A stretch of 55,024 nt of DNA from Pseudomonadaceae bacterium. GTDB lineage: Bacteria > Pseudomonadota > Gammaproteobacteria > Pseudomonadales > Azotimanducaceae. The DNA lies in assembly GCA_024743175.1 (NCBI GenBank), contig JANSXA010000016.1, forward strand, positions 1 through 55,024. The letters are read 5' to 3'. The notes beneath the pieces were generated by a model, which saw only the letters and a program-made list of their open reading frames with translations, was not told where the DNA came from and ran no database searches. Shown here piece by piece: positions 9,947 to 28,217 of the stretch. The position numbers and the translations under genes were made by a program. The number at the start of each line of letters is the position of its first letter. Within the stretch, counting starts at the first letter, position 1.

Positions 9947-10067
9947 GGATAGCCTCACAGCAACAAAAACGCCCACACTGTACAAGAGCCCAAGGACTCA
10001 GAGCGGGATAATGTCGCTACAAAGGAAAACTTCCCGTCTTTGACAAGCTGTTCCCGGCTTGAGACGA

Positions 10068-10262
10068 GCGACACGACGGCAGGTTTCCTGGCTTACCGAT
10101 TCACACAAACGATCCCTTCCCAACGCAAACCTGCGTTTCGTCAGTGGTTTTGATCGTCTATTTTCGGCTTACAGTTGCGGGCACAGCCCCGGCTTTAAAC
10201 CAACACCATCTGATGATGGTTTACCGGATTCCCTCTTAGCGCTTTAAGCGCACCGTCTGCGT
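10068..10262 (-). promoter_or_regulatory. Cobalamin riboswitch
   Basis: Read on the - strand, this region carries the conserved blocks of the cobalamin aptamer in order. They are GGGAATCCGGT, then GGGGCTGTGCCCGCAACTGT, then CCACTG, then GGGAAGG, then the B12 box AAGCCAGGAAACCTGCC near 10077-10097. The AdoCbl-type L5/L13 landmarks are present. About 120 bases separate the B12 box from the btuF start at 9946. They contain a 7-base inverted repeat (AGCGACA 10067-10073, TGTCGCT 10012-10018) that could belong to the expression platform. The expected role is to repress the B12 importer when cobalamin is plentiful. The outer limits are approximate. Confidence 0.93.
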
Positions 10263-10289
10263 CACAGTTTGGCGGGGGCAGCTATGATG

Positions 10290-19409: not shown

Positions 19410-20651
19410 TCAGTCCTCCTCGAGCTGCCGGCGCAATTCATCACGCTGCTCTAACAGATGATTAGGCATGTCTTTGTAAACGTCTTCAAACAGCTCACTA
19501 TGATCCAGGTAAGGTCCTTCACTCATGGTGCCGTAACTGCACGCGTCCTCCCAGGAACCTGTTACGATATCCGTGAGCTCTTCTGTTAGTGCAGAGTGTT
19601 TGGCTTCGCTCCAGCCATGGAACCTGATCATATGCGATTGCAATCGCTGCAGGGGATCACCGAGCGGCCATGCGGCAAATTCGTCCTTGGGTCGATAACG
19701 CGAGGGGTCATCGCTGGTAGAATGCGCACCTGCCCGATAGGTCACATGCTCGATCAAGGCGGGGCCAATCCCTCTACGCGCGCGTTCAGCTGCCCAGCGT
19801 GTTACCGCGTGAACCGCCAGAAAATCGTTACCATCAACACGTATCGATGCAATACCGTAGCCGGGCCCACGAGCGGCAAACGAACGGCGCTCTCCTCCAG
19901 CAAATCCTTGAAACGTGGATATTGCCCATTGGTTGTTGACTACATTGAGAATGACCGGCGCCTGATACACCGCCGCAAACGTTAACGCGTGGTGAAAATC
20001 CGCTTCAGCCGTAGCGCCTTCGCCAATCCAGGCTGCCGCAATATCGTCTTCGCCTTTGATTGCTGCAGCCATTGCCCAACCCACCGCTTGTGGATAGTTA
20101 ACCGTCAAATTACCCGTCACGGAAAAGATATTACCCCGCTCCCAGTGATACATGATGGGCATTTGTCTCCCCTTGCACATATCGTTGGTATTTGAAAGAC
20201 ACTGGCACATCAGTTCCATCAGATTACGGCCACGAGAAATCTGCAGGCCCTGGTTGCGATAGGATGGAAACAGCATGTCCGACGGTTCGAGGGCCATTGC
20301 CTGCGCGACTGATATGGCCTCTTCGCCGAGAGATTGCATATAAAAGGAGATTTTCCCCTGCCGCTGCATACGAACCATGTGGGCATCAAACAGACGTGTG
20401 AGCAACATGTTGCGCAACCCAATCTGCAGTTCCCCGGCGTCAAGTTGCGGATCCCAGGGACCAACCGCCGCATGCTCATCATCCATGACCCGCACCAGAT
20501 CATCCGTGAGATGGTTCATGCTGCGCACGGAACTGTTTACTTCCGGACGTTCCACTGCACCCGCAGCGGAAATCTGAACATAATCAAAATCGGGTGCATC
20601 ACCGGGACGAGCCGGCGGATGCGGGATGTTTAGGCTTGGTTTGCGGCTCAT
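19410..20651 (-). CDS. bkdA1: 2-oxoacid dehydrogenase E1 alpha subunit
   Basis: About 413 residues. The thiamine-diphosphate-binding region is GEGATAEADFHHALTFAAVYQAPVILNVVNNQWAIST, matching the family GDG-x(25-30)-NN motif with GEG in place of GDG. Other marks are RMQRQGKISFYMQSLGEEA and the phosphorylation-loop-like RAGAHSTSDDPSRYR. The extended N-terminus (SLNIPHPPARPGDAPDFDY) is typical of the proteobacterial branched-chain enzyme. I use the ATG at 20651, with AGGTGG 8 bases upstream; a GTG at 20663 is also open. The order E1alpha-E1beta-E2 with gaps of 2 and -4 bases marks one operon. No E3 (lipoamide dehydrogenase) gene is seen, so E3 must be supplied from elsewhere. Confidence 0.9.
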   Translation of the reverse strand: MSRKPSLNIPHPPARPGDAPDFDYVQISAAGAVERPEVNSSVRSMNHLTDDLVRVMDDEHAAVGPWDPQLDAGELQIGLRNMLLTRLFDAHMVRMQRQGKISFYMQSLGEEAISVAQAMALEPSDMLFPSYRNQGLQISRGRNLMELMCQCLSNTNDMCKGRQMPIMYHWERGNIFSVTGNLTVNYPQAVGWAMAAAIKGEDDIAAAWIGEGATAEADFHHALTFAAVYQAPVILNVVNNQWAISTFQGFAGGERRSFAARGPGYGIASIRVDGNDFLAVHAVTRWAAERARRGIGPALIEHVTYRAGAHSTSDDPSRYRPKDEFAAWPLGDPLQRLQSHMIRFHGWSEAKHSALTEELTDIVTGSWEDACSYGTMSEGPYLDHSELFEDVYKDMPNHLLEQRDELRRQLEED

Positions 20652-20701
20652 CTGCCTCACCACCTGAGAAATGTAGCTCTATTGTGGAGGATTGTTTCCG
20701 T

Positions 20702-20721
20702 TGGAGCTAGCTGGAGCTAGC
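20702..20721. repeat. Two tandem copies of a 10-base unit
   Basis: TGGAGCTAGC occurs twice head to tail between the channel gene and the E1alpha gene. Because GCTAGC is palindromic, the pair can also fold into a small hairpin with a TGGA loop. No T-run follows, so terminator function is doubtful. Confidence 0.5.
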
Positions 20722-20724
20722 GTA

Positions 20725-22098
20725 TCAATCCTCCTGCTTTGGCCAGGATTTCACGTGCAGGTCACGCTGAGGAAAGGGAATCTCGATACCCTGTTCCGCC
20801 AGAGCGTCCCAGATATTCAACAGTACCTGGCTGCGCACGTTTGCAAGTCCACTTTCCGGATCGGTGATCCAGAAACGCAGATCAAAATTGACTGAGCTGT
20901 CGCCAAACTCAACCAGATTACATACCGGTGACGGCGAAGATACCACCCGATCTACCGCCAACGCGGCATCAGCAGCCAGCTTCTGCACTGCACGCAGATC
21001 CTTGTGAGCATAGGTAATGCCGAAAGGCGCATGCAGACGCACTACGCGATCCGAGCGGGACCAGTTAACAACCCCTTCACTCATGAATCGATCATTAGGA
21101 ATCAGCATTTCAGTGCCATCACGTGTGCGCAGGGCAACATAACGTGCCTGCATGGCCGTCACCCAGCCCATGACACCGTCAACCTCAATTGTGTCGCGCG
21201 GCTTGATCGACTTGTCTGCAATCAGGGTAAAACCGGCCACAAAATTTGCCACGATGGTCTGCAGCCCCAGGCCTACACCCAAACCCACGGCACCACTGAA
21301 CACCGCAAGGGTTGCAAGATTGAAGCCGACAATCTGTAGAGCGATCAGCAAAGCGATGACGGGTAACAAAACACTCAACACTTTGCCAATCAGCGCCTTC
21401 AGAGCAGGGCTGATCTCATCAATCTGGTCCAGCTGCTGCTGCGCAACTTTGCTGAGCAGATTTGCTGCCCAGAACAGTATTGCGAAATAAAAGAGCGTGC
21501 GGAAGATATCGAACAGACTGATTCTGACCGGCGACCCGGCATCATTCTGACCCAGCGGAATAGCCAGTGCCTGCATCTGTTCAATCACGGGCATCAGCAT
21601 GCCAAACGCGTCAAGTGCGGCTATCGGCCAGGCGATGTAAAACGCAACTCTTGACCAGAAATCCGATTGAATAATCAGCGTGACCAGACGTACGATTATC
21701 CAGGCATTCATAAGCGCAATGGCAGCGCCTATCCAGCTTACGCCATAACCGGCACTACCAAAGGCGATCCGCATCGCGGTCAGCGTCAGGTACAACGCCA
21801 GCGGCAGGGCTATACTCGCAAACGCGTTGGCGATCTTCTGCAGCCATCCATTGGGCACCCGGGCGGCCACCTGACCACTTAAAAACTTCTTTAACCGCGG
21901 GCCAAACAATGCCGCTGGCACCAGAGCAGCCACAATGGCAATGATCTGAATACCGATATCGATGGTCAGTAAATTCAGCTGAATCCATTCAACTGCCCGC
22001 AGGACAAAAGACTCCAGTATTTCTACTGGGATAAGGTCATCGAGGACCTGAGTGTCCGTGGCGGTGCCCGTCGGATCAGAAGATGGCTGGCTGTTCAT
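20725..22098 (-). CDS. MscS-family mechanosensitive ion channel
   Basis: The 457-residue membrane protein has an N-terminal set of about four or five hydrophobic helices. The conserved MscS pore region and beta domain follow: FSGAVGLGVGLGLQTIVANFVAGF, IADKSIKPRDTIEVDG, GWVTAMQARYVALRTRDGTEMLIPND. The C-terminal alpha-beta domain is also present. Such channels open under membrane tension and release solutes on osmotic downshock. The larger size than E. coli MscS reflects extra N-terminal helices, as in YnaI-like channels. It lies downstream of and on the same strand as the stress genes, and may be part of the same response. Confidence 0.9.
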   Translation of the reverse strand: MNSQPSSDPTGTATDTQVLDDLIPVEILESFVLRAVEWIQLNLLTIDIGIQIIAIVAALVPAALFGPRLKKFLSGQVAARVPNGWLQKIANAFASIALPLALYLTLTAMRIAFGSAGYGVSWIGAAIALMNAWIIVRLVTLIIQSDFWSRVAFYIAWPIAALDAFGMLMPVIEQMQALAIPLGQNDAGSPVRISLFDIFRTLFYFAILFWAANLLSKVAQQQLDQIDEISPALKALIGKVLSVLLPVIALLIALQIVGFNLATLAVFSGAVGLGVGLGLQTIVANFVAGFTLIADKSIKPRDTIEVDGVMGWVTAMQARYVALRTRDGTEMLIPNDRFMSEGVVNWSRSDRVVRLHAPFGITYAHKDLRAVQKLAADAALAVDRVVSSPSPVCNLVEFGDSSVNFDLRFWITDPESGLANVRSQVLLNIWDALAEQGIEIPFPQRDLHVKSWPKQED

Positions 22099-22182
22099 TC
22101 TGCAACAATATCATAACAAGCCCGAGGGCCGAACGCGTAAACGTCATGGCACCCGCCACTAAGCAAACAAATTACTACGTAA

Positions 22183-22359
22183 CTATTTGGGCCCGAGAAA
22201 AAACCACAAAAGCACACCGAGCACGGGTAACAACAGAATTAACACAACCCACAGCACCTTTCTGCCCGTGCTGGCTGCACTGCCAACTACGCGGATGATC
22301 GCCCAGACGTTTATGATCAGTATGATCAGTCCAAATAGACCGCCAACTTCAATTCCCAT
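22183..22359 (-). CDS. Small PLDc_N-type membrane protein (58 aa)
   Basis: This short gene is found by direct reading. The ATG at 22359 has a GGGAGAAGAGC leader. The product begins MGIEVGGLFGLIILIINVWA and ends with LLPVLGVLLWFFLGPK, stop. Two membrane helices separated by a short Arg/Lys-bearing loop, with a final GPK, match the PLDc_N (PF13396) family of small inner-membrane proteins. The family is often found with stress or membrane genes; function unknown. It lies between the ferritin-like gene and the MscS gene on the same strand. Confidence 0.82.
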   Translation of the reverse strand: MGIEVGGLFGLIILIINVWAIIRVVGSAASTGRKVLWVVLILLLPVLGVLLWFFLGPK

Positions 22360-22398
22360 GCTCTTCTCCCAATTCCAGATCGATAAAATTATTATTCT

Positions 22399-22417
22399 GC
22401 GCTGAAGCTGTCAGCGC
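22399..22417. terminator. Possible hairpin terminator or attenuator
   Basis: GCGCTGA and TCAGCGC form a perfect 7-base stem with a 5-base loop, between the ferritin-like gene stop and the PLDc_N gene. On the - strand the following bases are A/T-rich but lack a T-run, so a strong intrinsic terminator is unlikely. Partial termination or an RNA-stability element is possible. Confidence 0.35.
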
Positions 22418-22490
22418 GTCTTCGAAATTGTATTAGACAAGCGGTCAATTGACACGCTCATCTGAAATCATACAACTGTTCTATGCCAGC

Positions 22491-23045
22491 CTATCTCTTA
22501 TTCGTCTGGTCACTGGCCAGAAGACCCGCCAGGTCATCTGCATGTTCTTCTTCCACAGCAAGAATATGTTCCAACATACGCCGGGTTGTTGGATCATCAT
22601 CACCCAGAAACGCTACCATTTCACGATAAGTGTCTATCGCTACACGCTCTGCAATCAGGTTCTCCTTGATCATATCCGGCAGTTTGGTGGCCACCGCGTA
22701 CTCCGAGTGGCTCCTCTTTTTCAATCCTTCGGGAGAAAAATCGGGGTCTCCACCTAACTGCACAATCCGGGCCGCAAGCGCGTCGGCGTGTTCCTGCTCC
22801 TGTTCGGCGTGCTCAAGAAACTCTTCAGCCGCTGCCTGGGCGTGAATACCAACGGCGGTGAAGTAGTGATACTTGTAACGCAGGGCGCAGACCAACTCCG
22901 TCGCCAGAGCGCCGTTCAGCATGTCCACCACCGCTTTGCGGTCGGCTTTATACCCTTCTGTTACCGCACCGGCCTCAACATGTTGACGCGCGTGTTTGCG
23001 GATGCTTTTGATATCCGATTTAAATTCAGTGTTTGCTCTGGTCAT
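22491..23045 (-). CDS. Ferritin-like (bacterioferritin-type) protein
   Basis: About 184 residues. A four-helix ferritin-like domain carries the di-iron pattern. A Glu lies in NGALATELVCALRYKYHYF, then EHAEQEQEHA (ExxH), a Glu in MIKENLIAERVAID, and EEEHADDLA (ExxH). LATEL followed by HYF resembles bacterioferritin and Dps-like proteins. It probably stores or detoxifies iron, or scavenges peroxide. I choose the ATG at 23045, with GGAAAGG upstream; an upstream in-frame start adds 25 unrelated residues. It is the third gene of the operon that begins with the universal stress protein behind a sigma-54 promoter. Confidence 0.83.
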   Translation of the reverse strand: MTRANTEFKSDIKSIRKHARQHVEAGAVTEGYKADRKAVVDMLNGALATELVCALRYKYHYFTAVGIHAQAAAEEFLEHAEQEQEHADALAARIVQLGGDPDFSPEGLKKRSHSEYAVATKLPDMIKENLIAERVAIDTYREMVAFLGDDDPTTRRMLEHILAVEEEHADDLAGLLASDQTNKR

Positions 23046-23094
23046 AATCCTTTCCGTAAAGTCTGGTTTTGAACTTGGTTCAGCACACATATTT

Positions 23095-23385
23095 TCAGCT
23101 CTTAAAGCGCTGAGCGGCACTGTCCACTGATTCAGACAACGATTTCCAGGCCATCTCCAGCCCGATTTTCACGTCGTCCCATGCAGCATCGCCGGCAGAG
23201 CGAAGCTCATGTAACTTCCCTTCAACTTGAGTGCGTGAGGCTCGCAGGTCATTAAGTTCCTGGTGAATTTCATTTTTCAATTCACCCGAGGCTCGCTCCG
23301 CTTTTGCTTCGAGCTTATCCAGCTTGTTGTTCAGCGCATCAAGCTGGTTCTTTGCTTTCTCTATGTAGTCTTCTCGTGAGGCCAT
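23095..23385 (-). CDS. Coiled-coil stress protein (96 aa)
   Basis: The ATG at 23385 is preceded by GGAGAAAAAAA. The 96-residue product is almost entirely charged helix with heptad-like repeats (LDALNNKLDKLEAKAERASGE). A short C-terminal amphipathic segment (WDDVKIGLEMAWKSLSESVDSA) resembles the small coiled-coil proteins of the sll1863-type stress family. No catalytic motif is present. It sits between the universal stress protein and the ferritin-like gene, with gaps of about 70 and 49 bases, and probably shares their sigma-54 promoter. Its function is not known; a structural or membrane-stress role is an inference. Confidence 0.72.
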   Translation of the reverse strand: MASREDYIEKAKNQLDALNNKLDKLEAKAERASGELKNEIHQELNDLRASRTQVEGKLHELRSAGDAAWDDVKIGLEMAWKSLSESVDSAAQRFKS

Positions 23386-23455
23386 TTTTTTTCTCCTTTC
23401 CTGATTGAGGGTGAATGTGTATCTCAGCACCGTGCAGATTCTCCTGCGACAGCAA

Positions 23456-24790
23456 CTACTGAGTTAACTCGGCAGATTCCACAGCTTCAGTTTCCGCTGC
23501 GTGATTCAGCAGTGAGCGGGCTGCAATAATTGAATTCAGCTCGCTTGCCAGGGTGGAACGAATCGGCCCACCTTCATCCTCTTCCCGCATCTGGCCGCGT
23601 ACATCCTGTTCCCAGATCTGCAGGATTCGATGCCGCATTGACGTGCTGAGCTCTTCGCAGGTAACCAGTGTATGAGGTGACCCGAAAGCACCCTTAGGGT
23701 CCAGCACGGCTTTTTCCATATCGATCACTGGCATGCCATGAACTGCAGCTTTCTCGGCTTTCGGAACGGCGGTGTCATCCGCATTTTTAATAAACACGAT
23801 GTCACACGGGGCCGCGGCAAGTACGGGTTCTGCGGTGACCGATCGAAACAAGCGCTCCCATCTGGACAGCTGCCGCGCAGCCATGACTACGAGATTCGCG
23901 TGCAGGTCTGCAGCAGCCTGAGGAATGACCTGACTGGCGGGACCTTCGGCAATCCGGACCCCATCCAGATTTAAGTGGAAATAGTCAGCAAAAGCCTCGA
24001 TCGCCTTACCGTGTTTACGCGCGACTTCAGAACGAGTCTGCCCTGCGGTCAGCGCCGCCGGCGGTGGATGCGCAACGCCACCAAACTCCGGTGCATAGGC
24101 CGCGAATGCGCGAATACTCTGCGGCACCTGATACGCATGAACGGGAAAGTTGACACCGTCAAAACTTTCCGCAATGCGGTTTGCGAAGCGAAACACGCTG
24201 TAGTCTTCCGCAGCGATCATCTCGTCTTTCTCAGCACTGGCGCCGATCGCAGTTACTACCCGTTCAATCTCGTTCGAGCCGTTTTCATTAACGAACCACA
24301 GATGAGCTGGCGACTGACGAATCAGATCCCAGTCCGTGTTCCCCAGCAGTCCCAGGACATAGTCGTATTCGCGCGACTGTTTCATCACAAGATCGGGCTT
24401 ACACTCATCAATCTTGCGCAAAATCGCTGCGCTGCGAGGTGAATCCCAACGGGTATCGTGGCGAATGATAACGCCTTCTGACGCAAGTCGGACCACAAGC
24501 TCCGCCATCAAGGTTGCATCGCGGTCCAGCATTGCGTCCCGGTCCCGGCGCATCTGATCTGCATCGTCAAAGAAGGCAGGCACCATTGATGAGTCGTGGC
24601 ACACATGGAACAGCTCGAGCTCGCAGCCGGTCGCTTTCGCGAGCGCAACGGCCCGATTGATAAGGACTGACTCCTCGGGAGCTCCGGGCTTAACAAGATC
24701 AGGGCTGATCACCACCAAAACCCGATTCAGAGCGGTATCTTTTGCCACCGGCTGATGCTTTTCTGACCGACTGTTAATGTCTGTAATCAT
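23456..24790 (-). CDS. Universal stress protein with tandem Usp domains
   Basis: The 444-residue product contains two Usp-like domains. The first (about 18-150) starts NRVLVVISPDLV; the second (about 160-310) includes NLVVMAARQLSRWERLFRSVTAEPVLAAAPCDIVFIK, the usual C-terminal strand region. A further C-terminal tail of about 120 residues (MEKAVLDPKGAFGSP, then an acidic helix) has no recognised domain. Tandem Usp proteins are induced in starvation, low oxygen or osmotic stress. The start at 24790 has GAGG 8 bases upstream. A near-perfect sigma-54 promoter lies 37-51 bases upstream on the same strand, so it heads the stress operon. Confidence 0.87.
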   Translation of the reverse strand: MITDINSRSEKHQPVAKDTALNRVLVVISPDLVKPGAPEESVLINRAVALAKATGCELELFHVCHDSSMVPAFFDDADQMRRDRDAMLDRDATLMAELVVRLASEGVIIRHDTRWDSPRSAAILRKIDECKPDLVMKQSREYDYVLGLLGNTDWDLIRQSPAHLWFVNENGSNEIERVVTAIGASAEKDEMIAAEDYSVFRFANRIAESFDGVNFPVHAYQVPQSIRAFAAYAPEFGGVAHPPPAALTAGQTRSEVARKHGKAIEAFADYFHLNLDGVRIAEGPASQVIPQAAADLHANLVVMAARQLSRWERLFRSVTAEPVLAAAPCDIVFIKNADDTAVPKAEKAAVHGMPVIDMEKAVLDPKGAFGSPHTLVTCEELSTSMRHRILQIWEQDVRGQMREEDEGGPIRSTLASELNSIIAARSLLNHAAETEAVESAELTQ

Positions 24791-24826
24791 CTTTTTGACC
24801 TCTTTCGCGAATTCACTAGAACAGGT

Positions 24827-24841
24827 GCAAACTGCGTGCCA
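24827..24841 (-). promoter_or_regulatory. Sigma-54 promoter for the stress operon
   Basis: On the - strand the sequence is TGGCACGCAGTTTGC. It matches the sigma-54 -24/-12 consensus (TGGCAC-N5-TTGC) at every defined base, with the diagnostic GG-N10-GC spacing. Transcription would start about 12 bases further left, near 24815, giving a leader of about 25 bases before the universal stress protein start. It is the best sigma-54 match I saw in the window, and a sigma-54 activator gene lies nearby. Confidence 0.85.
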
Positions 24842-25011
24842 GCGTCAGTAACGGGCTCCCATTGGGCTTCTCAGGTCGTCTGACGGGAATCAAGCCCTGC
24901 TGCAGGCTATTTTGTGCATATTCTGCAATACCCAGTGCAGGACATGCATAAATACTGCTCCGGGGCAGTGCTTATCCGCCCAGCAGGTAGAGATTCCAGC
25001 ACAAATCCTGC
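24842..25011. promoter_or_regulatory. Shared region between divergent sigma-54 promoters, with dyads
   Basis: Between the two promoters lie two dyads likely to be activator sites. CCTGC-T-GCAGG is at 24896-24906, about 55 bases upstream of the - strand promoter. ACTGC-N6-GCAGT is at 24954-24969, about 45 bases upstream of the + strand promoter. Both share a CTGC/GCAG core. A one-mismatch match to the IHF consensus (AATCAAGCCCTG) lies at 24888-24899. This fits upstream activating sequences with DNA bending for a sigma-54 activator. No binding data are available. Confidence 0.5.
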
Positions 25012-25016
25012 TGGAA
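24994..25016. promoter_or_regulatory. Inverted repeat overlapping the -24 element
   Basis: TTCCAGCA and TGCTGGAA form perfect 8-base arms around a 7-base spacer. The right arm runs into the TGG of the -24 element of the + strand promoter. A protein bound here could block sigma-54 polymerase, so this may be an operator. Chance cannot be excluded. Confidence 0.45.
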
Positions 25017-25027
25017 CAGATGTTGCA
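25012..25027 (+). promoter_or_regulatory. Sigma-54 promoter for the PRC-barrel gene
   Basis: TGGAACAGATGTTGCA has the GG-N10-GC spacing of sigma-54 promoters, with one change from TGGCAC at the -24 side. Transcription would begin near 25038, about 36 bases before the gene at 25074. It diverges from the - strand sigma-54 promoter at 24827-24841. Confidence 0.72.
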
Positions 25028-25073
25028 GGCTTGAACCCCTAAGCACACTTGTGAGGATGGAAGGAACTGGCAG

Positions 25074-25289
25074 ATGCAGGAACTATCAAAATTGTTTCAC
25101 GGCAAAGTCAGCAACGAAAAAGGACAATCGTTGGGATACATAGAGGAGGTCCTGTTTTGCGGAAAGTCCGGGCGTATCCGGGCTGTCATTGTCAAAGCAG
25201 AAAATCACACGCGAATGCGCGTACCCTGGACAGATCTATCTATCAACGACGATTCCTTCGTCGTGCAGAAAACCCGGCACCTCAGTTAG
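25074..25289 (+). CDS. Small PRC-barrel-like protein (71 aa)
   Basis: The 71-residue protein has the small-barrel pattern of PRC domains: KLFHGKVSNEKGQSLGYIEEVLF, then SGRIRAVIVKAE, then RMRVPWTDLSIN. The start at 25074 is preceded by GGAAGGAACTGGCAG. PRC-barrel proteins bind RNA, photosynthetic or membrane partners and are often stress-linked; no catalytic residue is expected. It is transcribed divergently from the universal stress operon under its own sigma-54-type promoter, so it likely belongs to the same regulon. Confidence 0.78.
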   Translation: MQELSKLFHGKVSNEKGQSLGYIEEVLFCGKSGRIRAVIVKAENHTRMRVPWTDLSINDDSFVVQKTRHLS

Positions 25290-25310
25290 TTGAGGCACTT
25301 CAGCTGAGGT
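25279..25310. terminator. Possible bidirectional terminator between convergent genes
   Basis: ACCTCAG (25279-25285) and CTGAGGT (25304-25310) are perfect inverted arms spanning the PRC-barrel stop and the gap before the activator's stop at 25332. A nested CTCA/TGAG pair allows a second fold. There is no strong T-run on either side, so termination is only likely, not certain. Confidence 0.4.
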
Positions 25311-25331
25311 ACCTTCGCTGACATGAGCACT

Positions 25332-26684
25332 TCATCCAGTTTCATCTTCCGGATTGCCAGAAGCCCCGTCTTCTTCATATTCATTCAGGCGGTTGTACAA
25401 AGTCCGCAACGACATCCCCAACATATCTGCCGCCGCCTGTTTATCATCGCCATTTGCTTCCAGTGTCGCCAGGATCAATTTGCGCTGCGCCTCATCAATA
25501 GACTCGCCAACAGAGATTTTTAAATCTCCGCTGCCCGCAAGCGCATCATTTTTCGGCAGGTGCTCCGGCAGGATTTCACCATCCGCTAAAATGTAAGCCT
25601 GTTCGACGGCGCTGCGTAACTCCCGCACATTCCCTGGCCAGCTGTGCTGTTCAAGCTGCTCCAGAGCCGCCGCTGACAGCGTTATTGATTGGCTATTTTT
25701 TTCATTGTGCGCATCAATGAAAAACTGCGTGAGACCAGCTACATCACCCTCTCGCTCGCGCAGCGCCGGTAGCTGTATCGGGAAGCGGGCAATGCGGTAA
25801 TAGAGATCCTCGCGCAACAAGTTGTCAGCAATGGCGCGCTCGGGATCACGATTCGTAGCGCCTATGATGCGCACGTTGCTTTGCAGGTCTGCTTCTCCCC
25901 CAACCCGTCGATAAGCACCTACCTCCAGCACACGCAGGAGTTTTGCCTGCAGTTCGATAGGCATTTCCGCCAGTTCATCAAAAAAAAGCGTGCCGCCCTG
26001 TGCACGCTCAAAAAAGCCCGCGTGCCTGCGCTCGGCACCGCTGAAGCTGCCTTTCTCGTGACCAAACAACTCGCTCTCAAACAGTTCTTCAGGGATCGCG
26101 GCACAATTCATGGCCATAAACGGGCCCTGCGCAACATCACTCATCTGATGCAGTGTGCGCGCCACCAGTTCTTTGCCTGTGCCGCTTTCACCCAATAGCA
26201 ATACGCTGGTATCCGTCGGTGCAACCTTACGCAGGAGCCGATACAGTTTGCGCATCTTCGCGGAACTACCACGAAGTTCACCAAACTGATCAAGCGGCTC
26301 AATATCCTGATCTTCGTCCAGAACCACAGTCTGTCTGGCTTCTTCGAACACATCCGCCAGCAGGGGCTGCAAAAAATCAACATCGAACGGCTTACAGAAA
26401 AAATAGGTTGCCCCCTGCGCGATCGCCTGACGCACTTGAGGTGCATCATCTTCATCCGCCATTAGAATAATTTCAGCGGTGCCATCCTGACTGGCGGTTT
26501 TTATCAAACCGGCCAGATCAATATCTGGCAACTCCATATTTAGAAACCAGACTCTGACGTTTGCATCGCTTGCTACGGGATCTGTCGTTACATCAACGTC
26601 AAAACCTACTGACTCAAGCAGGGCTACCAGTGCGGATGTGTGCTCGCAGGGTAGATCAATAACGCGTGCAGCAGGTTTGCTCAA
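25332..26684 (-). CDS. Sigma-54-dependent activator with degenerate receiver domain
   Basis: 450 residues in three parts. A receiver-like domain (about 1-115) reads WFLNMELPD, with Asn49 where the phosphoacceptor Asp should be. It keeps Lys98 (CKPF), but Ala76 sits at the Thr/Ser switch position. The AAA+ domain has Walker A GESGTGKE (Lys171), the sigma-54 loop as GSFSGA (212-217, usual GAFTGA), and Walker B GGTLFFDE. A Fis-type helix-turn-helix lies at 400-440 (KQAAADMLGMSLRTLYNRL). Such proteins open sigma-54 promoters by ATP hydrolysis. The start is TTG at 26684; no ATG occurs before residue 50. It lies next to two sigma-54 promoters and probably controls them. Confidence 0.9.
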   Translation of the reverse strand: MSKPAARVIDLPCEHTSALVALLESVGFDVDVTTDPVASDANVRVWFLNMELPDIDLAGLIKTASQDGTAEIILMADEDDAPQVRQAIAQGATYFFCKPFDVDFLQPLLADVFEEARQTVVLDEDQDIEPLDQFGELRGSSAKMRKLYRLLRKVAPTDTSVLLLGESGTGKELVARTLHQMSDVAQGPFMAMNCAAIPEELFESELFGHEKGSFSGAERRHAGFFERAQGGTLFFDELAEMPIELQAKLLRVLEVGAYRRVGGEADLQSNVRIIGATNRDPERAIADNLLREDLYYRIARFPIQLPALREREGDVAGLTQFFIDAHNEKNSQSITLSAAALEQLEQHSWPGNVRELRSAVEQAYILADGEILPEHLPKNDALAGSGDLKISVGESIDEAQRKLILATLEANGDDKQAAADMLGMSLRTLYNRLNEYEEDGASGNPEDETG

Positions 26685-26894
26685 AGCCCTGCCGCTCGCA
26701 ATGTGTCGAATATCAGTAACATGCGGTCCATGTCAGAAAGCGCACCCATCAAAAACCAAACGTAAGTATCGTCGCACCCAGCAGCCAAGGCAACGACGCA
26801 CTTGTGCAATGACAAAACTTGACACTACTATCCGATACACGAGGGCAAAACAATCTGCGTGGCCGCGGCGCTGCGCGAAATGGGGAGATTAGAG

Positions 26895-28217
26895 ATGAGC
26901 GAAGCGAGTCCGGCCTGGCACCTGCGAGGTAACTGGGCGCCGTTGCGGGAAGAGAACACGCATCACAACCTGGTTGTTGAAGGCAAAATCCCAAGCAGCT
27001 TAAGCGGCGTGTACATGCGCACGGGTCCCAACCCCGCTGGTGGCGAATCTCCGCACTGGTTCTTAGGTGACGGCATGGTGCACGGCATTCGCATCGAAAA
27101 TGGCAAAGCGGTATGGCACAAGAACAGGTTCATCAGAACACCCAATATCACCAACCCTGACCACAAGCCGGACAACCCGTTTGATTTGGGATACGGCACG
27201 GGTAACACCCACATCATGCAGCACGCAGGGAAAATACTTTGTCTGGAAGAAGCCCACTGGCCCTGGCGTATTGATGGCGATCTCAACACCATTGGTGTGG
27301 AAAATTTCGAGGGCGCTCTGACCTGCTCCATGACTGCGCATCCGAAGGTTTGCCCGAAGACAGGGGAGCTGCTCGCTTTCAGCTACTTTTCCTTTGAGCA
27401 GCCTTTTTTACAATATATTCGCATCGGTGCCGACGGCGCGGTCAAACAGATAGAGGGCATCAACTTACCCAACATGGTGATGATGCATGACTTCAACATC
27501 ACCGAGAATTACGCCGTTTTCATGGACCTGCCGTTGGTGCTTGATCTTGAACTGCTGGCGACCGGCGTGCCGTTCTCCTTCCAGAAAGAAGCCGGTGCGC
27601 GGCTGGGTGTGATGCCACGTGAAGGCACAGCGGAAGATATCCGTTGGTTCGAAATTGACCCCTGTTACGTTTTCCACCCGGTAAACGCCTACGACAAGGA
27701 CGGCATCATCACGCTCTATGTTTCACGGCAGGCGTCTGCTTTCAGTGGTGGCTCCGATGAATACGGCAACGTCGCACGACTGTGGCAATGGCAAATCAAT
27801 CTACATAGCGGCACAGTCACAGAAACAGCCATGGATGATCGACCTGGTGATTTCGGGCGCACAGATGACCGGCTTGTTGGCCAGGACAGCCGCTATGGTT
27901 ACCTGATGGCGTTGGGCGGAGAAGGTAACAGCGAAGAGCCCGTTTACGGCGACAAGCTGTACAAATACGATTTACCCGCGGGCACCTGTGAAGAACATGA
28001 CCTGGGTAAAGGTATCCGAGGATCAGAACCCGTGTTTGCGCCTGGTGGCACAGGTGAAGACGAAGGCTGGATCCTCAATCTCAACCATGACGAACGTACC
28101 GGCAAGTCTCGCATGTTGATCATAGACGCGCAGAATTTCAGCGCGCCTCCTGTGGCTACAATTCATTTGCCCAAGCGCGTGCCTTATGGTGCGCACGGTA
28201 ACTGGATATCAGATTAA
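26895..28217 (+). CDS. Carotenoid/stilbene cleavage oxygenase (RPE65 family)
   Basis: About 440 residues. The fold is a seven-bladed propeller with a four-histidine iron site. Visible histidines sit in TCSMTAHPKVC, NMVMMHDFNITENY, CYVFHPVNAYD and the C-terminal YGAHGNW. YMRTGPNPAGG and WFLGDGMVHG near the N-terminus are also typical. The enzymes cleave a C=C double bond with O2; substrates range from carotenoids and apocarotenoids to lignostilbenes. The ATG at 26895 is preferred because GGAG lies 7 bases upstream; an ATG at 26880 and a GTG at 26859 are in frame. No signal peptide. Substrate not determinable. Confidence 0.9.
   Translation: MSEASPAWHLRGNWAPLREENTHHNLVVEGKIPSSLSGVYMRTGPNPAGGESPHWFLGDGMVHGIRIENGKAVWHKNRFIRTPNITNPDHKPDNPFDLGYGTGNTHIMQHAGKILCLEEAHWPWRIDGDLNTIGVENFEGALTCSMTAHPKVCPKTGELLAFSYFSFEQPFLQYIRIGADGAVKQIEGINLPNMVMMHDFNITENYAVFMDLPLVLDLELLATGVPFSFQKEAGARLGVMPREGTAEDIRWFEIDPCYVFHPVNAYDKDGIITLYVSRQASAFSGGSDEYGNVARLWQWQINLHSGTVTETAMDDRPGDFGRTDDRLVGQDSRYGYLMALGGEGNSEEPVYGDKLYKYDLPAGTCEEHDLGKGIRGSEPVFAPGGTGEDEGWILNLNHDERTGKSRMLIIDAQNFSAPPVATIHLPKRVPYGAHGNWISD

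Follow-up and report, generated by a model that had tools for sequence, protein, structure and literature searches.

The window (the whole stretch of 55,024 nucleotides analyzed) contains two transcription units that diverge from a 283-bp gap, confirming the layout of a universal stress protein operon and a PRC-barrel gene described in the initial annotation. A gene for a sigma-54 activator, also noted there, adjoins the module and is convergent with the PRC gene. The genes and candidate control elements are as follows (window coordinates, strand, feature).

20725-22098, minus strand, MscS-family channel (Pfam MS_channel_2nd, 7.8e-16)
22183-22359, minus strand, small membrane protein PLDc_N, 58 aa (Pfam PLDc_N, 7.3e-12)
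22491-23045, minus strand, ferritin-like, DPS-like protein, 184 aa (Pfam Ferritin, 6.3e-25; PDB 8w1d "DPS-like protein", 5.3e-69)
23095-23385, minus strand, coiled-coil protein of the sll1863 stress family, 96 aa (NCBIfam sll1863_fam, 95.8 bits, cut-off 35)
23456-24790, minus strand, UspE-like tandem universal stress protein, 444 aa (Pfam Usp, 6.5e-21; PDB UspE, 2.4e-13)
24826-24841, minus strand, predicted sigma-54 promoter of the uspE operon, TGGCACGCAGTTTGCA, which matches the sigma-54 consensus throughout (20.6 bits)
24915-24948, no strand, candidate enhancer between the promoters, two facing TGCA-N5-TGCA 13-mers 21 bp apart
24994-25016, no strand, perfect 8-bp inverted repeat TTCCAGCA-N7-TGCTGGAA, overlapping the -24 element of the PRC promoter
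25012-25027, plus strand, predicted sigma-54 promoter of the PRC-barrel gene, TGGAACAGATGTTGCA, with A at the fourth base (15.2 bits)
25074-25289, plus strand, single PRC-barrel protein, 71 aa (Pfam PRC, 2.8e-8)
25332-26684, minus strand, sigma-54 activator with a degenerate receiver, an AAA+ domain with a GSFSGA loop, a Fis-type HTH and a TTG start (Pfam Sigma54_activat, 5.3e-66)

Genes of the module

The UspE-like protein comprises two Usp stretches (NCBIfam UspE 93.5 bits, below the cut-off of 227) and a C-terminal extension of ~100 aa (window 23456-23770, minus strand). Part of this extension was matched at 29% by a stand-alone 129-aa frame in genome G183, and the UspE-like protein of G627, a genome considered below, likewise carries an extension. 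The structure prediction for UspE (four sequences) had a mean pLDDT of 45.3, too poor for use. Later starts, each preceded by a good ribosome-binding site, were assigned to the genes for the ferritin (23045) and the coiled-coil protein (23385). Compared with DPS-like proteins (PDB 8w1d and 2vzb), the window ferritin matched 8w1d over 168 residues. It has a single Cys in the aligned part, whereas the thioferritin motif of archaeal DPSL proteins has conserved cysteines, according to an excerpt of PMC12532284.

Downstream of the ferritin gene lie the PLDc_N and MscS genes, which were absent from the initial annotation. In the 131-bp gap between ferritin and PLDc_N, a sigma-70-like match was weak and terminator-like matches were absent, and the gap between PLDc_N and MscS holds one terminator-like match (22134-22120). 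The two genes may thus or may not belong to the transcript of the uspE operon. On the other side of the module, a terminator-like hairpin (25298-25277) is located between the convergent PRC and activator genes (42-bp gap). Elsewhere, the window contains a cobalamin riboswitch (10062-10272, minus strand, 99.5 bits).

Divergent promoters and candidate binding elements

A sigma-54 promoter had been proposed for each of the divergent units, and we located both sites. They were scored with a weight matrix based on the sigma-54 consensus and evaluated against 20,000 shuffles of the 283-bp gap that preserved its dinucleotides. Both carry GG and GC at -24 and -12 within a 16-base frame near the consensus; the uspE-side promoter has no base off consensus and the PRC-side promoter a single -24 base. 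While any site of at least 15 bits arose in 168 of the 20,000 shuffles, none of them yielded a site of at least 20 bits (observed 20.6) or sites of at least 15 bits on both strands. In the whole window, the two promoters were the only sites reaching 15 bits (mean of 1.0 in 20 shuffles). The genome also encodes rpoN (482.6 bits, cut-off 277.35).

Genome-wide, the strict pattern TGGCAYN5TTGCW had 23 matches versus 6 for the reversed control. Both window sites fit the looser TGGNACN5TTGCW; with 29 matches versus 21, this pattern is weak evidence when taken alone. This small excess would fit the view that the promoter matches arose by chance and that the genes use sigma-70 or sigma-S promoters. 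We consider that view highly improbable: against it stand the absence of the pair from all gap shuffles and the excess of strict matches, and there is no sigma-70-like match inside the 283-bp gap and no excess of such matches across 20500-27000 (4 versus a shuffle mean of 4.9). The promoter sequences, through the shuffle test, and the parallel second operon described below lend good support to sigma-54 control of both divergent units, which is likely on these sequence grounds. Transcripts would be expected to start near 24815 for the uspE operon and near 25038 for the PRC-barrel gene.

The gap also contains several repeat elements. The dyads with a CTGC/GCAG core that the initial annotation placed upstream of each promoter are present as strings (24955-24968 and 24896-24906) but do not exceed chance, inverted repeats scoring at least 5 numbering 6 against a shuffle mean of 3.59, with 46 of 300 shuffles having as many. 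The best inverted-repeat score was reached in 22 of the 300 shuffles, which is also the figure for the perfect 8-bp repeat at the PRC promoter. Two TGCA-N5-TGCA 13-mers appeared in 10 of 20,000 shuffles, a motif picked by eye after it had been sighted. The whole window holds 8 exact matches to it, 6 of them outside the gap; it was absent upstream of the promoters scanned in the sigma-54 island described below, and no pair occurred in the loci of relatives. It was therefore rejected as a shared enhancer, and the pair in the gap is regarded as no more than a candidate given this absence and the 6 matches elsewhere. No enhancer motif common to the window gap and the island or the relatives was found.

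The activator and its relatives

The activator displays NtrC-class features (AAA+ sigma-54 domain, Walker A GESGTGKE and Fis-type HTH), with the loop GSFSGA in place of the NtrC-class GAFTGA. Its receiver part scored 22.3 bits against Pfam Response_reg (1.5e-4), below the curated cut-off of 30.2. In the alignment, the phosphate-accepting Asp is replaced by Asn, the acidic pair reads D-L and the Thr is Ala, with the Lys kept. The protein does not have the Asp, acidic pair and Thr/Ser of a response regulator and is classed here as having a pseudo-receiver, defined in an excerpt of PMC12632262 as a receiver-like sequence without key phosphorylation residues. The structure prediction for this part (one sequence, mean pLDDT 46.9) was too poor to confirm the fold. 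Since the phosphate-accepting Asp is missing, the activator is most likely switched otherwise than by phosphorylation of that site, through its amount, a ligand or a partner protein.

The best PDB matches were 4l4u and 3dzd (1.4e-75, activator residues 39-436), which we take to be NtrC1 and NtrC4 of Aquifex; the window activator differs from such NtrC-family response regulators in having Asn for Asp and FSGA for FTGA. The phage shock response likewise has a sigma-54 activator beside a stress operon: the gene for PspF, which has no receiver domain, adjoins the psp stress operon that PspF controls, and we infer a comparable control here. However, the Pfam scan of genes at this locus turned up no psp gene, and the coiled-coil protein scored only 21.8 bits against NCBIfam PspA (cut-off 242.95). 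The AAA+ domain was also matched by PDB chains of FleQ (~2e-68) and of VpsR (9.6e-43), a sigma-54 activator with a pseudo-receiver. In FleQ, the Arg of the FRS stretch has a role in c-di-GMP binding; it aligns with Gly in the window activator, and FleQ-type c-di-GMP sensing was accordingly rejected. The FSGA loop and the other neighbours distinguish the window activator from VpsR and from FleQ, which is treated as a pseudo-receiver protein in an excerpt of PMC12632262.

We aligned 34 activators (from 29 search loci and three further ones, together with the window activator and act2, a second activator of the same genome) and inferred a tree. Eight activators from eight genomes, including that of the window, grouped together with 88/82 support, and 90% of 200 bootstrap trees gave them a single origin. 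All eight have the FSGA loop, whereas the other 26 have FTGA. The receiver Asp is absent in 8/8 (N, A, A, E, S, T, S and G), the Glu being that of locus L004; it is also absent in 11 of the 26 activators outside the group and hence is no group hallmark. Eight sigma-54 activators without the receiver Asp (L007-L014; seven from family f27, one from G177 of f38) have kept GAFTGA.

A strict TGGCAYN5TTGCW site was located within 10 kb of the activator in six of the eight group genomes. By Poisson estimates that use rounded genome sizes, this proximity has a probability of 5e-7, of 4.7e-6 without the window genome and of 1.7e-4 when G696, whose site and gene content fall in an unclear, partly masked stretch (part reads N), is left out as well. 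No strict site was found within 10 kb in G106, nor in G004, where the activator (locus L005) is at a contig end. Activators of this class are often near sigma-54 sites anyway, so proximity in 6/8 genomes is no proof that activator and promoter are paired. Matrix sites of at least 15 bits numbered 12 in 128.8 kb of seven relative loci versus 4 in 415 kb of 23 other loci, these controls coming from other genomes than the seven. Genes for stress or ion balance (Usp, MscS, PRC, CsbD, MgtC and NhaA) are among the neighbours in five of the six site-bearing genomes. The neighbourhoods in six relatives are as follows.

G627, coiled-coil, UspE-like with extension, MgtC, SOD, TrkA/TrkH, NhaA and Usp
G623, NhaA back to back with UspE-like/DAGK, with one sigma-54 site on each side (18.0 and 17.3 bits)
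G115, DUF1328-CsbD-MscS-PRC, convergent with the activator as in the window (PRC 20.1 bits, just below the cut-off of 21.2)
G180, MscS-PLDc_N plus one gene without assignment
G106, PLD/VTT gene, with a weak site (14.4 bits)
G004, DUF2254, with no site seen

The exact gene set was met in this genome alone among those sampled. Conservation of promoters and genes in relatives, on which the initial annotation had made its proposal depend, thus holds only partially: coiled-coil, UspE-like, MscS and PRC genes recur as a theme, but their order does not. The initial annotation knew of no described system with this gene set, and a literature search (titles and abstract openings, among the matches listed) found no description of the module. 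Close ferritins occurred in 18 of 368 other genomes sampled from the class, in addition to a weak match in G433 and a split match in G220. The simple gene caller lost the ferritin ORF in 4 of the 18 maps, and 14 were usable. In these 14 (two contigs being shorter), BLAST, which can miss coiled-coils, detected neither a coiled-coil gene nor a UspE gene within 6.5 kb of the ferritin; no site of at least 13.5 bits lay directly upstream of it, and a BON gene was nearby in 3. Among 205 other genomes of the family, close ferritins were present only in G609 and G572, in another setting. Other genomes of the same genus contained no close ferritin (E below 1e-20) and no close activator (E <= 1e-85).

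UspE was matched at E <= 1e-25 in 3 of the 368 other class genomes. Three loci of named MAGs contained relatives of UspE with the extension; by length and place, one of these loci is on the contig of G557. Directly upstream of UspE, sites of at least 12 bits were absent from all three. NhaA genes (L080:7339-8595 and L081:3180-4424) are near UspE in two of these loci, as in G623 and G627. A plasmid origin was considered and rejected: the only record of the plasmid collection that UspE matched is 4.9 Mb long and the match was distant, and the 95 plasmid records with activator matches (E <= 1e-70) all showed <60% identity.

A second operon and the control of the module

The same genome harbors a second UspE/coiled-coil/ferritin operon in the same gene order (C9:470421-472411), behind a sigma-54 site, TGGCATGGAGATTGCA, that starts at 470360. 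Its UspE is 46% identical to that of the window and has no extension; its ferritin is 71% identical. The surrounding island encodes SOD, a sortase, a hybrid kinase, BON, an aldehyde dehydrogenase, MgtC, LpxR and the activator act2, whose receiver is intact. Six of the 23 strict sites of the genome fall in a 12.6-kb stretch of this island (probability 3.5e-11 for one given stretch, ~1e-8 allowing for genome length). The island spans G000:C9:449254-477563 (loci L061 and L062), and L062 has 7 sites of at least 15 bits in 20 kb versus a shuffle mean of 0.2. The five nearest tree relatives of act2, from five genomes, all have kinase-like genes nearby (5/5, BLAST), along with BON-ferritin (G057), sortase-MgtC (G003), BON-MgtC (G118) or BON (G126 and G098). 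In G057 (L164:14989-16256), BON and a ferritin 55% identical to that of the window lie near the act2-type activator and kinases. Scoring of 8 of 18 candidates gave at least 8 activator matches in the genome, and each of these could in principle act at the window promoters.

We hypothesize, and consider probable, that the locus is a small local sigma-54 stress regulon run by the neighbouring pseudo-receiver activator, conserved in theme and not in order. Sigma-54 RNA polymerase would wait at the two divergent promoters until the NtrC-type activator next door, presumably in response to stress, opens both after binding at some point within the 170 bp that separate them, switching on the UspE-like, coiled-coil and DPS-like ferritin genes on one side and the PRC-barrel protein on the other. 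Regulation by this activator had already been put forward in the initial annotation; the strict sites near its group in 6/8 genomes speak for it indirectly, but no binding site was established.

A less probable account, which still deserves some weight, keeps the promoters sigma-54 dependent but has act2 drive both operon copies, with the pseudo-receiver neighbour modulating or competing at the same sites. The two operons are paralogous and the recognition helices nearly the same (SLRTLYNRL in the window activator, SPKTLYNRL in act2), and the act2-type loci in five other genomes adjoin kinases and BON, MgtC, ferritin or sortase genes. However, no common enhancer motif was found upstream of the two operons, and the window activator belongs to its own group with its own neighbours. 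It is more doubtful still that the sigma-54 sites are real, the adjoining activator is unrelated and the genes were united by chance or transfer. Such an origin would suit a gene set met here alone among the sampled genomes and the patchy distribution of UspE and ferritin relatives across the class, but it sits poorly with the PRC gene convergent with the activator in G115 and with the UspE-like and coiled-coil genes that recur in G627.

Because sigma-54 promoters open only with the help of their activators, a local regulon run by the pseudo-receiver neighbour would gate the stress response tightly. Genes of the CsbD/DUF1328/BON/Usp kind, elsewhere discussed mainly under sigma-S, sigma-B or similar factors, occur beside both activator groups, several of them behind sigma-54 sites. 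As a tentative extension, the general stress response in parts of the source's order may be run by sigma-54 through phosphorylation-independent activators (pseudo-receiver, FSGA) whose neighbouring stress and ion-balance genes come in exchangeable sets, and these activators may share sites with a kinase-linked sister activator. We regard the activator group with its recurring stress neighbours as the most interesting part of these results. How pseudo-receivers are switched is called a mystery in the abstract of PMC12632262, and a group in which the phosphorylation site is missing and the sigma-54 contact loop altered would offer a tractable case for pseudo-receiver switching.
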